From contig NZ_JASCIS010000006.1 of NCBI RefSeq assembly GCF_029968015.1, forward strand, positions 1 to 64,000: DNA of 64,000 nt, read 5' to 3'. Both the position numbers and the translations under genes were made by a program. Each line of letters opens with the position of its first letter. The stretch's first letter is position 1. The stretch is from Streptomyces luteolus (lineage in GTDB: Bacteria > Actinomycetota > Actinomycetes > Streptomycetales > Streptomycetaceae). Under the pieces are notes generated by a model, which did not search any database, was not told where the DNA came from, and saw only the letters and a program-made list of their open reading frames with translations. Shown one piece after another: positions 2,548-45,742 of the stretch.

Positions 2548-3348
2548 TCAGGCCGTGCGGCGGCGGAGGGTGGCGGCGCCGAGGGCGAGGACCAGGAGGG
2601 CGCAGGCGGCTACGACGAGGATGTCGCGGATGAAGTCGGCGGTGACGTCGGTGTGCTGGAGGACTTCGTTCATGCCGTCGACCGCGTACGACATGGGGAG
2701 GACGTTCGAGATCGCCTCCAGGACGGGGTGCATGGTGTCGCGCGGGGCGAAGAGGCCGCAGAGGAGGAGCTGGGGGAAGATCACGGCCGGCATGAACTGG
2801 ACGGCCTGGAACTCGGAGGCCGCGAAGGCCGAGACGAAGAGGCCGAGGGCGGTGCCGAGGAGGGCGTCCAGGAGGGCGACCAGGAGCAGCAGCCAGGGCG
2901 AGCCGATGACGTCGAGGCCGAGGCCCCACAGGGCGAGGCCGGTGGCGAGTGCGGACTGGACGACGGCGAGCAGGCCGAAGGCGAGGGCGTACCCGAGGAT
3001 CAGGTCGGCCTTGCCGAGGGGCATGGCGAGGAGGCGTTCCAGGGTGCCGGAGGTGCGCTCGCGGAGGGTGGCGATGGACGTCACCAGGAACATCGTGATC
3101 AGCGGGAAGATGCCGAGCAGCGAGGCGCCGATGGTGTCGAAGGTGCGCTGGCTGCCGTCGAAGACGTAGCGCAGCAGGAGCAGCATCACGCAGGGGACGA
3201 ACAGCATCAGGGCGATCGAGCGCGGGTCGTGCCGGAGTTGGCGCAGCACGCGCGCGGTGGTGGCGAGTGTGCGGGATGCGGAGAAGGCGGGGGCGCGGGT
3301 CGGGGTGGGGGCCGGGGCCATGGCGGTGTCGGTTGCGGGGGTGGTCAC
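2548..3348 (-). CDS. ABC-2 type exporter permease (start codon rebuilt by an IS insertion)
   Basis: Integral membrane subunit of a drug- or polymer-type ABC exporter, about 266 residues. A soluble N-terminus of about 50 residues precedes six hydrophobic segments. The ABC-2 core includes LRERTSGTLERLLAMPLGK, and the C-terminus resembles NatB/DrrB permeases. Its partner ATPase is now 1.5 kb upstream, separated by an IS110 element. The present GTG at 3348 lies exactly at the element junction. In the reconstructed empty site the start would have been ATG, overlapping the ATPase stop as ATGA. The IS end supplies an AAAGGA 10 bp before the GTG, so translation may continue. Substrate unknown. Confidence 0.85.
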   Translation of the reverse strand: MTTPATDTAMAPAPTPTRAPAFSASRTLATTARVLRQLRHDPRSIALMLFVPCVMLLLLRYVFDGSQRTFDTIGASLLGIFPLITMFLVTSIATLRERTSGTLERLLAMPLGKADLILGYALAFGLLAVVQSALATGLALWGLGLDVIGSPWLLLLVALLDALLGTALGLFVSAFAASEFQAVQFMPAVIFPQLLLCGLFAPRDTMHPVLEAISNVLPMSYAVDGMNEVLQHTDVTADFIRDILVVAACALLVLALGAATLRRRTA

Positions 3349-3404
3349 TGGTCCACCATCCTTTCTGCGGGCGCCAGTTGGAGGCTCGTGGTTAGATGCC
3401 GGTG

Positions 3405-3546
3405 AGAGCCGGGGTGACGGCCTGGGGTGGTCGCTCTGCGAGAGCCCCGATGACACTGCCGCCCCCGGCTCTTCCGGAGCTGTCGACCGGCAACAGAGGG
3501 ACGCGCCGCAGAGCGCCAGTCAGTGACCGCCCGGGGACCAGCTCCG
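3405..3546 (+). ncRNA. Candidate bridge RNA of the IS110 element, with two guide loops
   Basis: Loop 1 (target): outer stem AGAGCCGGGG (3405-3414) with CCCCGGCTCT (3463-3472), inner GGC/GCC, and a terminal hairpin GCTCT-GCG-AGAGC (3433-3445). The 5' strand GGGGTGGTC (3424-3432) equals the left target flank at 3338-3346. The 3' strand CGATGAC (3448-3454) is the complement of the right flank at 4843-4849. Loop 2 (donor): stem CGGAGCTG (3475-3482) with CAGCTCCG (3539-3546) and hairpin GCGC-CGCAGA-GCGC (3503-3516). Its 3' strand CAGTGAC (3521-3527) complements the element left end at 3344-3350. A left donor guide is not clear: ACAGAGGG at 3493-3500 resembles 4834-4841 only out of register. Exact RNA ends are unknown. 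Confidence 0.8.
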
Positions 3547-3581
3547 TCACCGGCCTGTCGCTGATAGGCCCAAGGAGAGCT

Positions 3582-4826
3582 GTGGCACTGCCCGAGAGCG
3601 CGTACTACGTCGGGATCGACTGGGGATCGGCCGAGCACGCGGTCTGCGTCCTGACCGAGGCCGGCCGCCCCAAGACCCAGTTCACGATCACCCACACCGC
3701 CGCCGGGTTCGCCGACCTGGCCCGGCGCCTGGCCCGGCTCGGGGCAGCCGAGGACATCCCCGTGGCCATCGAGCGCCCGGACGGACGTCTGGTCGACACG
3801 CTGCTGGAGGCCGGGCATCCGGTGGTCCCGGTGAAGTCCAACGCCATCAAGGCATGGCGGGACGCAGAGGTCCTGTCCGGCGCGAAGTCCGACCCCGGCG
3901 ACGCGATGGTGATCGCCGAGTACCTGCGGCTGCGGCACCACAGGCTCACCCCAGCCCGCCCGTTCTCCGAACAGACCAAGGCACTGCGCACCGTGGTCCG
4001 CACCCGCGACGACGTAGTGAGGCTGCGGGTGATGGCCACCAACATGCTCTCCGCGCTGCTGGACGCCTTCTGGCCGGGCGCGAAGGTGCTGTTCAAGGAC
4101 GGTCAGTCGCCGATCGCGCTGGAGTTCCTGACCCGCTACCCGACCCCGGCCTCCGCCGCCGCGCTGGGGCAGAAGCGCATGGCCGCCTTCTGCGTCAAGC
4201 ACAGCTACTGCGGCCGCCGCAGCCCTGCCGACCTGGTCAAGCGCCTGCGCTCGGCCCCGCCCGGTGTCACAGCCGAGCACCACACCGAAGCCGGCCGGGA
4301 CGCCGTCATGGCCCTGGTCACCGTGCTGCGGACGCTGGGAGGCGTCAAGAAGGACCTCGACCGCTCGGTCGACGCCCACCTCGCCCAGCACCCCGACGGC
4401 CGGATCTTCGCCTCGCTGCCCAGAGCCGGACGCGTCAACGCCGCCCAGATGCTCGCCGAGTGGGGCGACTCCCGCGATGCCTACGACAACCCGGACGCCA
4501 TCGCCGCATTCGCCGGGGTCGCCCCGGTCACCAAGGCATCCGGACGCATGCGCGGCGTCTCCTACCGCTGGGCCTGCAACAAGCGCCTGCGCCAGGCCAT
4601 CACAACGTTCGCGGACAACAGCCGCCACGAGAGCGCCTGGGCGGCCGACACCTACCAGCGCGCCCGCGCCCGCGGCATGGACCACCCGCACGCCACCCGC
4701 GTCCTGGCCCGCGCATGGGTCCGCGTGATCTACCGATGCTGGCTCAGCCACGAGCCCTACGAACCCGAACAGCACCGCGCAGCACGGCCCTTCACACCCC
4801 AGCCCGAGCTGATTCAAACAGTCTGA
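3582..4826 (+). CDS. IS110-family DEDD recombinase (transposase)
   Basis: RNA-guided recombinase that inserts and excises the element; 414 residues from the GTG at 3582, which has AAGGAGA 4 bp upstream. The N-terminal RuvC-like domain shows the acidic set at D13 (GIDWGSAEH), E64 (VAIERPDG), D104 and D107 (KSDPGDAM). The C-terminal transposase_20 domain contains SLPRAGRVNAAQML and GVAPVTKASG, where S320 is the expected catalytic serine. All residues are in place and the frame is intact, so the enzyme looks functional. The longer frame from 3396 would run through the bridge-RNA region and is rejected. Confidence 0.95.
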   Translation: MALPESAYYVGIDWGSAEHAVCVLTEAGRPKTQFTITHTAAGFADLARRLARLGAAEDIPVAIERPDGRLVDTLLEAGHPVVPVKSNAIKAWRDAEVLSGAKSDPGDAMVIAEYLRLRHHRLTPARPFSEQTKALRTVVRTRDDVVRLRVMATNMLSALLDAFWPGAKVLFKDGQSPIALEFLTRYPTPASAAALGQKRMAAFCVKHSYCGRRSPADLVKRLRSAPPGVTAEHHTEAGRDAVMALVTVLRTLGGVKKDLDRSVDAHLAQHPDGRIFASLPRAGRVNAAQMLAEWGDSRDAYDNPDAIAAFAGVAPVTKASGRMRGVSYRWACNKRLRQAITTFADNSRHESAWAADTYQRARARGMDHPHATRVLARAWVRVIYRCWLSHEPYEPEQHRAARPFTPQPELIQTV

Positions 4827-4843
4827 GGTTGACACAGGGGGTG

Positions 4844-5668
4844 TCATCGCGCCGGCTCCTGTCGGTCGTCAGTGGTGGTGGTGGCGGCGGCGCGGTCGGC
4901 GTGCGCTCGGGCGTTGGCCTCGTCGACCAGCTGGAGGAAGGCGGACTCGACGGTTCCGGAGGTGCCGCGCAGGGCGTCCGGGGTGTCGTCGGCGAGGATC
5001 TCGCCCTCGCGCATGAGGAGGAGGCGGTGGCAGCGCTCGGCCTCGTCCATGACGTGTGAGGAGACGAGGAGGGTGGTGCCGCGCCCGGCGATGGTGTGGA
5101 AGAGGTTCCACAGGTCGCGGCGGAGCACCGGGTCGAGGCCGACGGTGGGTTCGTCGAGGACGAGGAGTTCGGGGCTGCCGAGCAGGGCGACGGCGAGCGA
5201 GACGCGGCTGCGCTGGCCGCCGGAGAGGGTGCCGGCGAGGGCGTCGGTGTGCGAGGTGAGGTCGACCTCGGCGATGGCGCGGGTGACGTCGGCGCGGCGG
5301 CGGGTGGCGGCCGCGCGGCCCGGGTCGAGGATCGCGGCGAAGTAGTCGAGGTTCTGGCGGACCGTCAGGTCGTCGTAGACGGACGGGTCCTGGGTCACGT
5401 ATCCGATGCGGGAGCGGAGTTCGGGGGCGCCGGCCGGGTGGCCGAGGACCCGGAGCGTGCCGGTGACCCTGGCCTGGGTGCCGACGATCGCGCGCATCAG
5501 CGTGGTCTTGCCGCAGCCGGAGGGGCCGAGGAGGCCGGTGACCTGGCCGCGCGGCACGTCGAAGCCGAGGCCGCGCACCACGGGGCGGCCGCCTCGTACG
5601 ACGGAGAGGTCGGCGGCATGGATGGCGGTGTGCACGGCTGCGCCCCTTCCGGACGAATAATTCATCAC
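4844..5668 (-). CDS. ABC exporter ATP-binding protein
   Basis: Cytoplasmic ATPase of an ABC-2 exporter, 274 residues. Walker A is GPSGCGKTTLM, Q-loop YVTQDPSVYDD, signature LSGGQRSRV, Walker B LLVLDEPTVGLDP, and the H-loop follows as VSSHVMDEAERC. The stop codon (4844-4846) survives at the edge of the IS110 insertion; before insertion it overlapped the permease start. Two in-frame starts, GTG 5668 and ATG 5665, both lie inside an 18-bp palindrome, with AGGAGG at 5681-5686. Expression is thus likely repressed by something that binds over the start. Probably an antibiotic or lipid exporter; substrate not deducible. Confidence 0.92.
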   Translation of the reverse strand: MMNYSSGRGAAVHTAIHAADLSVVRGGRPVVRGLGFDVPRGQVTGLLGPSGCGKTTLMRAIVGTQARVTGTLRVLGHPAGAPELRSRIGYVTQDPSVYDDLTVRQNLDYFAAILDPGRAAATRRRADVTRAIAEVDLTSHTDALAGTLSGGQRSRVSLAVALLGSPELLVLDEPTVGLDPVLRRDLWNLFHTIAGRGTTLLVSSHVMDEAERCHRLLLMREGEILADDTPDALRGTSGTVESAFLQLVDEANARAHADRAAATTTTDDRQEPAR

Positions 5669-44456: not shown

Positions 44457-44571
44457 GGCAGGTCGCCTCTCGGAGTGCTGCACACAGATTTCGGGTGGAG
44501 GAGAGGGCCCCGCGGAAAGCCCGGATCTCGTCGACAGCTCCACAGTGCGGAGGCCGCGGCGGGCCTGTCGC

Positions 44572-44598
44572 GTCGATTGACGGGAGTCGTCAATCGAC
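44572..44598. promoter_or_regulatory. Operator-like inverted repeat upstream of the ArsR-like gene
   Basis: GTCGATTGAC (44572-44581) and GTCAATCGAC (44589-44598) are perfect inverted arms with a 7-bp spacer, 37 bp before the ATG at 44636. The size and symmetry fit an ArsR-type dimer site; the adjacent regulator is the obvious binder. Confidence 0.78.
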
Positions 44599-44635
44599 CC
44601 GGGCGTTGTCAGAGCCGCCGTGCACCATGGAGGGC

Positions 44636-45742
44636 ATGAGCGTGACCATCGACATCAGCGGCCTCCCGCCGGAGCGGATCTCCGTCGTGCCGTCTCCCCT
44701 CGCGGAGCTCGGCATGGCGCTGCACGCACTGAGCGAACCGGGCCACCACCCGGGCCTGCAGGGCTGGGTCACTGCCGTCTCAGCAGGCCTTGACGCGTGT
44801 CTCGCCGACCGGCTGTGCGAGGCGGACTTCCTGTGGCGTACGACGTTCTCGGACGTCTTCGCCCCCTTCGCCGGGATACCGGGCGGCAGGTCGATGCCGG
44901 GCGGGACGCTCGCCGCCGAGCTGGACCTGCTCGACACGTTGAGCAACGAGACGTTCGTCGACGTCGCCCTGGAGTTCACCTGCCAGCTGACGTACGACAC
45001 GGTGGCGCCGGACCCGTTGAACGACGCTGCGGTGCGCAAGCGGGCACTCGATCTCGCGGCGACGCGCGGCGTGCACCAAGTGCGTTTCACCAAGCGCCTG
45101 TTGGACGACCCACCACAGATCCGGACCTGGTTCCGGCAGTTGATGGAGGACTGCGAGGAGGCGTTCTTCGCGGACATCTGGGGACGACTTGAGCACCAGC
45201 TGGCGGCCGACGCCCGGCACAAGACGGAGCTGCTGCGCCACAAGGGCCTCAAGGAGACGTTGAGCGCGGTGTCGGCGGCTGTCTCGCTGGACGAGCGGGC
45301 CGAGCGCATCACCGTGGACAAGCTGTCCGAGGGGCGTACGGCGACGGGGGACGGCGGCCTGGTCCTGGTGCCCACCAGCCTGGGCTGGCCGCACCTGTTC
45401 GTGCTGCACCGGTACGGGTGGCAACCCGCCATCACGTACCCCGTGGGCGCCCCGCGCCCCACCACGCCGGCCTCCGTCGAGGAGCTGACGCGCCGCATGG
45501 AGGCACTGGCCCACCCGGTGCGGATGCGGCTCTGCCGTCACCTGGCGCGTGGCGCGTACACGACCAGCGAGCTGGTGGACGCGCACGGCATGACGGCGCC
45601 GGAGATCTCCCGGCACCTCACCGTCCTGAAGAAGGCCGGGCTCCTCACGGCGCGGCGCCGGGGCCGCTACGTCCTGCATCAGCTGGACCTGACGGCGGTC
45701 GCGCGGCTTGGCAGTGACTTCATCGAGGGGGTGCTGCGGTAG
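44636..45742 (+). CDS. ArsR-like winged-helix regulator with DUF5937 domain
   Basis: 368 residues. The N-terminal 260 residues form a DUF5937-like domain (ISVVPSPLAELGMALHALSEPGHHPGLQGWV...). The C-terminal wHTH is typical ArsR: RMEALAHPVRMRLCRHLARGAYTTSELVDAHGMTAPEISRHLTVLKKAGLLTARRRGRYVLHQLD in outline. ATG 44636 has GGAGGG upstream. No metal-binding ELCVCDL motif is visible, so the signal is unknown. A 10-bp inverted repeat upstream suggests autoregulation. Confidence 0.9.
   Translation: MSVTIDISGLPPERISVVPSPLAELGMALHALSEPGHHPGLQGWVTAVSAGLDACLADRLCEADFLWRTTFSDVFAPFAGIPGGRSMPGGTLAAELDLLDTLSNETFVDVALEFTCQLTYDTVAPDPLNDAAVRKRALDLAATRGVHQVRFTKRLLDDPPQIRTWFRQLMEDCEEAFFADIWGRLEHQLAADARHKTELLRHKGLKETLSAVSAAVSLDERAERITVDKLSEGRTATGDGGLVLVPTSLGWPHLFVLHRYGWQPAITYPVGAPRPTTPASVEELTRRMEALAHPVRMRLCRHLARGAYTTSELVDAHGMTAPEISRHLTVLKKAGLLTARRRGRYVLHQLDLTAVARLGSDFIEGVLR

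Follow-up and report, generated by a model that had tools for sequence, protein, structure and literature searches.

An IS110-group element of ~1.5 kb interrupts an operon encoding an ABC ATPase and an ABC-2 permease in Streptomyces luteolus (contig NZ_JASCIS010000006.1, positions 1 to 64,000; this whole stretch of 64,000 nucleotides is referred to as the window). The bridge RNA predicted in its left end likely steered the element onto the ATGA overlap between the two genes, and the operon is predicted to remain translated by virtue of the element's ends and antisense strand. On a broader and less secure scale, we think it probable that gene starts are the programmed targets of an entire branch of bridge-RNA elements, which would be see-through to ribosomes: the host start codon would open an antisense frame that takes in the noncoding RNA gene, the far end would restart the host gene, and selection would keep the frame rather than its protein. 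A preliminary description of this DNA had presented the element as carrying a bridge RNA matched to its insertion site and had missed three features that we read from the sequence, namely, the location of the site at a start codon, the rebuilding of this start by the ends of the element, and an antisense frame running from end to end.

The element and its relatives

The bounds of the element (Table 1) include a copy of GTC at each junction, and GTCA is common to both junctions, such that the exact cut is ambiguous. A DNA search found one copy of the element in its own genome, and a protein search found three IS110-like proteins there, two of them distant. The permease gene now starts at GTG (3346-3348), the first base of which is derived from the element; the related loci examined have ATG at this position.

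Relatives were grouped into clade A (~58 to 86% identity) and clade B (~40 to 50%), with 21 IS110 elements of the same genus at 30 to 34% identity serving as controls. They comprise 25 loci from one genome set, 30 fetched from matches in 221 of 295 genomes, and an additional 13 plus 3; of the 16 plasmid records found, five were fetched, and mycobacterial plasmid relatives at 64 to 69% identity were compared in place of IS900, which did not turn up among the loci. A search of the class for further relatives returned no new element, and the one distant relative found in phages (29%) was left out of the analysis. Seven duplicate loci were dropped (L001, L003, L034, L058, L076, L077, and L078); L010 and L079 represent partial copies, and L002, a short hit, resembles chance. 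L034 shares its insertion with L004, the two coming from a genome of the genus and from a Streptomyces niphimycinicus record. The counts of full-length frames, left ends, and host frames exclude L048 and L050, and the left-end count also excludes L051, in which that region is missing. All of these elements are kin, and counts across them are not counts of independent events.

The recombinase passes the IS110 family RNA-guided transposase model NF033542 (174 bits; cut-off, 140), as well as the curated cut-offs of PF01548 and PF02371 (DEDD_Tnp_IS110 and Transposase_20). Residues D13, E64, D104, D107, and S320, previously listed as kept, are indeed present in the window protein and do not vary among the clade A proteins (22 of 22); clade B keeps E64 in 17 of 18 proteins and the other four residues in 18 of 18. 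Judged by its sequence, the element would appear to be intact and active. A sequence search of the PDB gave no match up to E 0.001. Residues 136 to 371 weakly match the TIGR-Tas endonuclease model NF052498 (29 bits versus a cut-off of 100), and a TIGR-Tas paper (PMC12045711) reportedly names IS110 often.

Table 1. Coordinates of the element, its predicted RNA and guides, and the adjoining host genes in the window
Feature	Position	Strand	Basis or remark
Host ABC-2 permease gene	2548..3348	-	PF01061; empty sites
Left target (host flank + GTC)	3338..3346	+	
IS110-group element	3344..4845	+	Sequence; insertion-free site in 19 best-matching related loci
End-to-end antisense frame, 500 aa	3345..4847	-	Host ATG at right junction to TGA overlapping GTG at left junction
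Shine-Dalgarno-like AAAGGA of left end	3359..3364	-	10 nt before rebuilt GTG
Predicted bridge RNA, conserved two-loop core	3396..3562	+	Covariation; model R1; core bounds, not RNA ends
Left target guide (LTG)	3424..3432	+	Identical to 3338-3346
Hairpin between LTG and RTG	3433..3445	+	Covariation
Right target guide (RTG)	3448..3454	+	Complementary to 4843-4849; includes ATG of host start codon
Left donor guide (LDG)	3493..3500	+	ACAGAGGG, 7/8 identical to 4834-4841
Right donor guide (RDG)	3521..3527	+	Complementary to 3344-3350
IS110 recombinase, 414 aa, GTG start	3582..4826	+	NF033542, PF01548, PF02371
Left donor (element right end) matched by LDG	4834..4841	+	
Right target (GTC + host flank)	4843..4849	+	Minus strand reads CGATGAC, ATPase stop TGA overlapping ATG
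Host ABC ATPase gene	4844..5668	-	PF00005; stop TGA 4844-4846 retained

A predicted bridge RNA in the left end

Bridge RNAs have been established for IS110 elements since 2024, and comparison among relatives supports the prediction that the left end encodes one here. Folded alone, the window sequence is only moderately better than its shuffles (z −2.0), of which 7 in 200 do equally well; since this single-sequence signal is weak, the evidence was taken from relatives. In an alignment of 25 clade A left ends, the two-loop fold put forward in the preliminary description covaries strongly: the consensus shows two internal loops, 95.0% of 984 cells are paired, and 23 of 41 pairs display two-sided changes. 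These measures were reached in 0 of 500 shuffles, and slid structures yielded at most seven pairs with two-sided changes, a comparison in which the consensus is favored because it derives from the same alignment. The perfect 5-bp hairpin reported between the target guides stands (3433-3437/3441-3445). The reported 10-bp stem is also present (3405-3414/3463-3472), but it encloses the first (target) loop rather than both loops, which are jointly enclosed by a helix at 3401-3403/3549-3551.

Covariance model R1 scores the window, which is one of its training sequences, at 175 bits. When trained on clade A, the model detects 18 of the 19 clade B loci searched (E 2.7e-7 or better), none of which were in the training set, versus E 0.003 for the best of 21 controls; the single locus missed is L060, and L069 (a near-copy of L063) and L010 were left out of this search. 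The left-end RNA has no match in Rfam up to E 1. Elsewhere in the window, a weak hit at 44565-44681 (E 0.24) looks like chance.

Guides and their DNA partners

Direct reading bears out the three matches claimed previously: the 9-mer identity between LTG and the left flank (GGGGTGGTC), and RTG (CGATGAC) and RDG (CAGTGAC) as reverse complements of the right flank and the left end of the element, respectively. The LDG, by contrast, had been called unclear but can be located, reading ACAGAGGG against ACAGGGGG in the right end. With all four guides present and the target guides matching both flanks, the claim that the element is programmed for this site is supported.

Each guide was evaluated across the 25 aligned left ends (left junction seen in 22, right junction in 22) by re-pairing it with the partners of other elements. 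For the target guides, whose tests pair an element with host DNA, 85 of 176 variable letters of LTG match its own flank (re-pairing mean, 55), as do 101 of 154 variable letters of RTG (mean, 69.7). For the donor guides, whose tests pair parts of one element and are therefore inflated by kinship, the matches number 154 of 176 letters in LDG (mean, 126.4) and 87 of 132 variable letters in RDG (mean, 73.2). None of 20,000 re-pairings did as well for any guide. The signal is gone when LTG or RTG is slid by 1 to 3 bases; LDG shows no excess at shifts of −3, −2, +1, +2, and +3 and a faint one at −1 (56 versus 50.3). All eight LDG letters match in 8 of 22 elements (L037, L038, L039, L042, L044, L046, L056, and L071), and the match ends before TGTC, with the next position matching in 0 of 22. 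Related copies lie at sites that match their own guides, the point on which the preliminary description had staked its reading; the left flank of L033 fits its guide only at a one-base offset. That the RNA is expressed and directs recombination is a prediction.

Target sites and start codons

Read on the minus strand, the right junction (CGATGAC) holds the TGA of the ABC ATPase gene overlapping the permease ATG, i.e., an ATGA stop/start overlap. The joined flanks of the element find matches somewhere in 149 of 150 genomes of the genus, the window's own included. The 19 best-matching loci besides the window all have an uninterrupted ATGA in which the stop of the ATPase gene overlaps the permease start; having been chosen as the best matches to the joined flanks, these loci are uninterrupted partly by selection, and the ATGA overlap is the independent point. 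Such related operons place the ends of the element where they had been drawn before.

The right flank presents ATG or GTG in 37 of the 42 elements for which the right junction is seen (window included). Guide codon and flank codon are the same in 36 of 39 elements (re-pairing mean, 20.3; 0 of 20,000 re-pairings as good): agreement extends over ATG, GTG, CTG, TTG, ACG, and GCG, and the exceptions are L005, L056, and L073. Of 38 target codons, 22 have a Shine-Dalgarno-like 4-mer ahead of them (shuffle mean, 6.3); because the other 16 are without one, the landing sites of most relatives, not all, are likely to be gene starts. On a tree of 60 proteins, the start-codon label requires at least five changes and hence was not simply gained or lost once. 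The labels on this tree are older ones, as are those in the A-ending codon count and the third-base test below: that grouping was partly hand-sorted and placed L059 among the elements without a start codon, whereas the current grouping follows a single rule, the flank codon.

The opposite end of the element rebuilds the gene start lost to the insertion. Read outward, the left end supplies AAAGGA, ten bases, and GTG, followed in frame by the ACC ACC of the permease. A Shine-Dalgarno-like 4-mer occurs in 32 of the 37 left ends with a start codon, which are kin and do not amount to an independent count. The extent of the host frame beyond the rebuilt start was discarded as evidence: at least 100 codons are open in 25 of 35 elements, but in another frame the same holds nearly as often (21 of 35).

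A clade B relative (L075, 1754-3237, on a plasmid of Streptomyces sp. NBC_01454) lies within the ATGA overlap of a thiopeptide-type biosynthesis gene and a lanC-like gene. In the existing annotation, the ATG supplied by the element serves as the start of the lanC-like gene, the thiopeptide-type gene upstream closes with the overlapping TGA, and the ends of the annotated genes fall at the ends of the element.

An antisense reading frame from end to end

From the host ATG at 4845-4847, a reading frame continues for 500 codons on the strand opposite the recombinase gene and closes at a TGA (3345-3347) that overlaps the rebuilt GTG. Among the 37 elements with both junctions, a full-length frame of this kind exists in 26 of the 33 sited at ATG or GTG versus 0 of 4 others (p 0.005). 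Its stop lies within GTGA or ATGA in some elements and within TAGTG or TAATG in others.

Stops in this frame correspond to TTA, CTA, and TCA codons of the recombinase, which were tallied over the best-aligned part of each gene. ATG/GTG-sited genes contain five antisense stops in 14,033 codons, all five in L059, such that 36 of 37 genes have none. Genes sited at other codons contain 14 in 1,952 codons (0 of 5 genes free of them), and the same-genus controls contain 55 in 8,257 codons (2 of 21 genes free of them). In the nine relatives whose right junction is not seen, there are eight antisense stops in 2,857 codons, confined to L048 (three), L070 (four), and L009 (one), with six genes having none. 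Other A-ending codons, counted under the older grouping, are about as common as in controls and are not depleted. The frame also crosses the noncoding left end, and in that region it is stop-free in 29 of the 32 elements sited at ATG or GTG, compared with 6, 3, 2, 0, and 4 of 32 for the five remaining frames.

The seven of 33 ATG/GTG-sited elements that are without the full frame are L040, L041, L049, L056, L047, L059, and L065. The first four of these derive from one Nocardioidaceae metagenome genome (CP059259.1), in which all are sited at ATG and the full antisense frame is absent. In L047, the right end carries a tandem duplication of AGGTTGACATAGGG (~3750-3785), where the antisense frame is cut to 58 codons. 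In three further elements (L051, L054, and L011), internal deletions leave the length of the element in frame and do not close the antisense frame; L051 is without the RNA region.

Origin of the antisense frame

Under the explanation that we prefer, the left-end RNA would be made and would pair with target and donor DNA, and the recombinase would join the element into a start codon matching the target loop. Ribosomes that initiate at the start codon of the host would then translate across the element on its antisense strand, terminate at the left junction, and reinitiate on the host gene, in the manner of ordinary ATGA or TAGTG coupling. Translation of the operon would continue, and the insertion would cost the host little.

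The frame could instead encode a needed protein, like the proposed Hed of IS900, with start-codon targeting serving its expression. It spans the whole element, begins at host codons, and is preceded by the Shine-Dalgarno-like sites counted above (22 of 38), and the same proposal was made for IS900 (Doran et al. 1997, by its title as cited in PMC8141618); all the same, we regard a needed product as unlikely. The antisense frame has no Pfam match, and it is the frame, not the whole product, that survives the deletions in L051, L054, and L011. The third base of matched recombinase codons is the first codon position of the antisense frame, and its identity would rise if the antisense protein were conserved. 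Its excess over the expectation from codon usage is mostly not above that of controls: 0.046 versus 0.068 at 40 to 50% identity and 0.063 versus 0.079 at 60 to 70%, the latter against three control pairs only. The exception is the 70 to 80% range (0.133 versus 0.096), which would fit some conservation of an antisense protein. The frame thus seems to have been kept and the protein, for the most part, not; selection appears to hold the frame open and not to act on its product.

More doubtful still is that these are ordinary bridge-RNA elements that hit start codons through an ancestral ATGA guide, with the open frame a by-product of high GC content. Antisense codons are in register with those of the recombinase, so the only stops possible are TTA, CTA, and TCA, which are rare in high-GC genes, and the trait partly follows the tree. 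Yet the same-genus control elements, at 65 to 71% GC, average 2.6 antisense stops per gene, one to four occur in each sister element sited at another codon, the missing A-ending codons are the very ones that read as stops on the other strand, and the frame extends across the noncoding left end. We assign the lowest probability to a role at the level of RNA, in which host transcription would yield a translated antisense RNA that silences the recombinase and the bridge RNA. The ATG/GTG flank codon does face against the recombinase gene, so the host gene would be read antisense to it, but silencing alone leaves the rebuilt Shine-Dalgarno-like site, the left-end start codon, and the stop/start overlap unexplained.

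Relation to known systems and implications

Like IS621 and the IS110 group, the element has an IS110-type recombinase, a left-end noncoding RNA with two internal loops, and an analogous donor loop (PMC11208160, as far as its available text describes them). In that text, all four guide pairings of IS621 are said to include the core (PMC11208160); here, the LDG match leaves out the last four bases up to the end of the shared GTC, and the core is not in all four pairings. Such an arrangement is a difference of layout within the IS110 family, not a failure of membership in it. Also unlike IS621, the elements described here have mostly ATG/GTG targets, ends that rebuild a start, and an antisense frame from end to end.

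The closest precedent in these respects is IS900 of Mycobacterium avium subsp. paratuberculosis, an IS110 family element for which CATGNNNNNNTCTCCTT is given as the target motif and in which hed, a frame without a start of its own, occupies the complementary strand over the entire element (PMC8141618, in the portion available). We read this motif as a start codon plus a Shine-Dalgarno sequence on the other strand. Both IS900, whose layout is known here by description, and the present elements would insert at translation starts and have an antisense frame begun by a host codon. The seekRNA elements of the IS1111 and IS110 groups similarly employ an RNA from a noncoding region to select their target; start-codon targeting and an antisense frame are not described in the accessible part of that report (PMC11187229). 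In the literature searched, which most subscription papers fall outside, we found no paper joining a bridge RNA with IS900 and, among partially available texts, no description of start-codon targeting or of an end-to-end antisense frame in bridge-RNA elements.

These findings tie bridge RNAs to the older report that IS900 targets translation starts. If the explanation that we prefer is true, a mobile element could sit inside an operon without killing it, and the puzzling hed of IS900 would have a purpose in passage rather than product, making hed function directly testable. The natural guides would then be aimed at a functional signal and not at one locus. The relatives also give tool makers a collection of naturally occurring bridge RNAs whose targets are start codons, along with a donor guide that stops short of the core.

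An IS110-like element in mycobacteriophage Omega was reported with a 5-base duplication, CACTG (PMC3706429, in the part available). CACTG is also present in many of the left ends analyzed here, and the Omega "duplication" may be a shared core instead.
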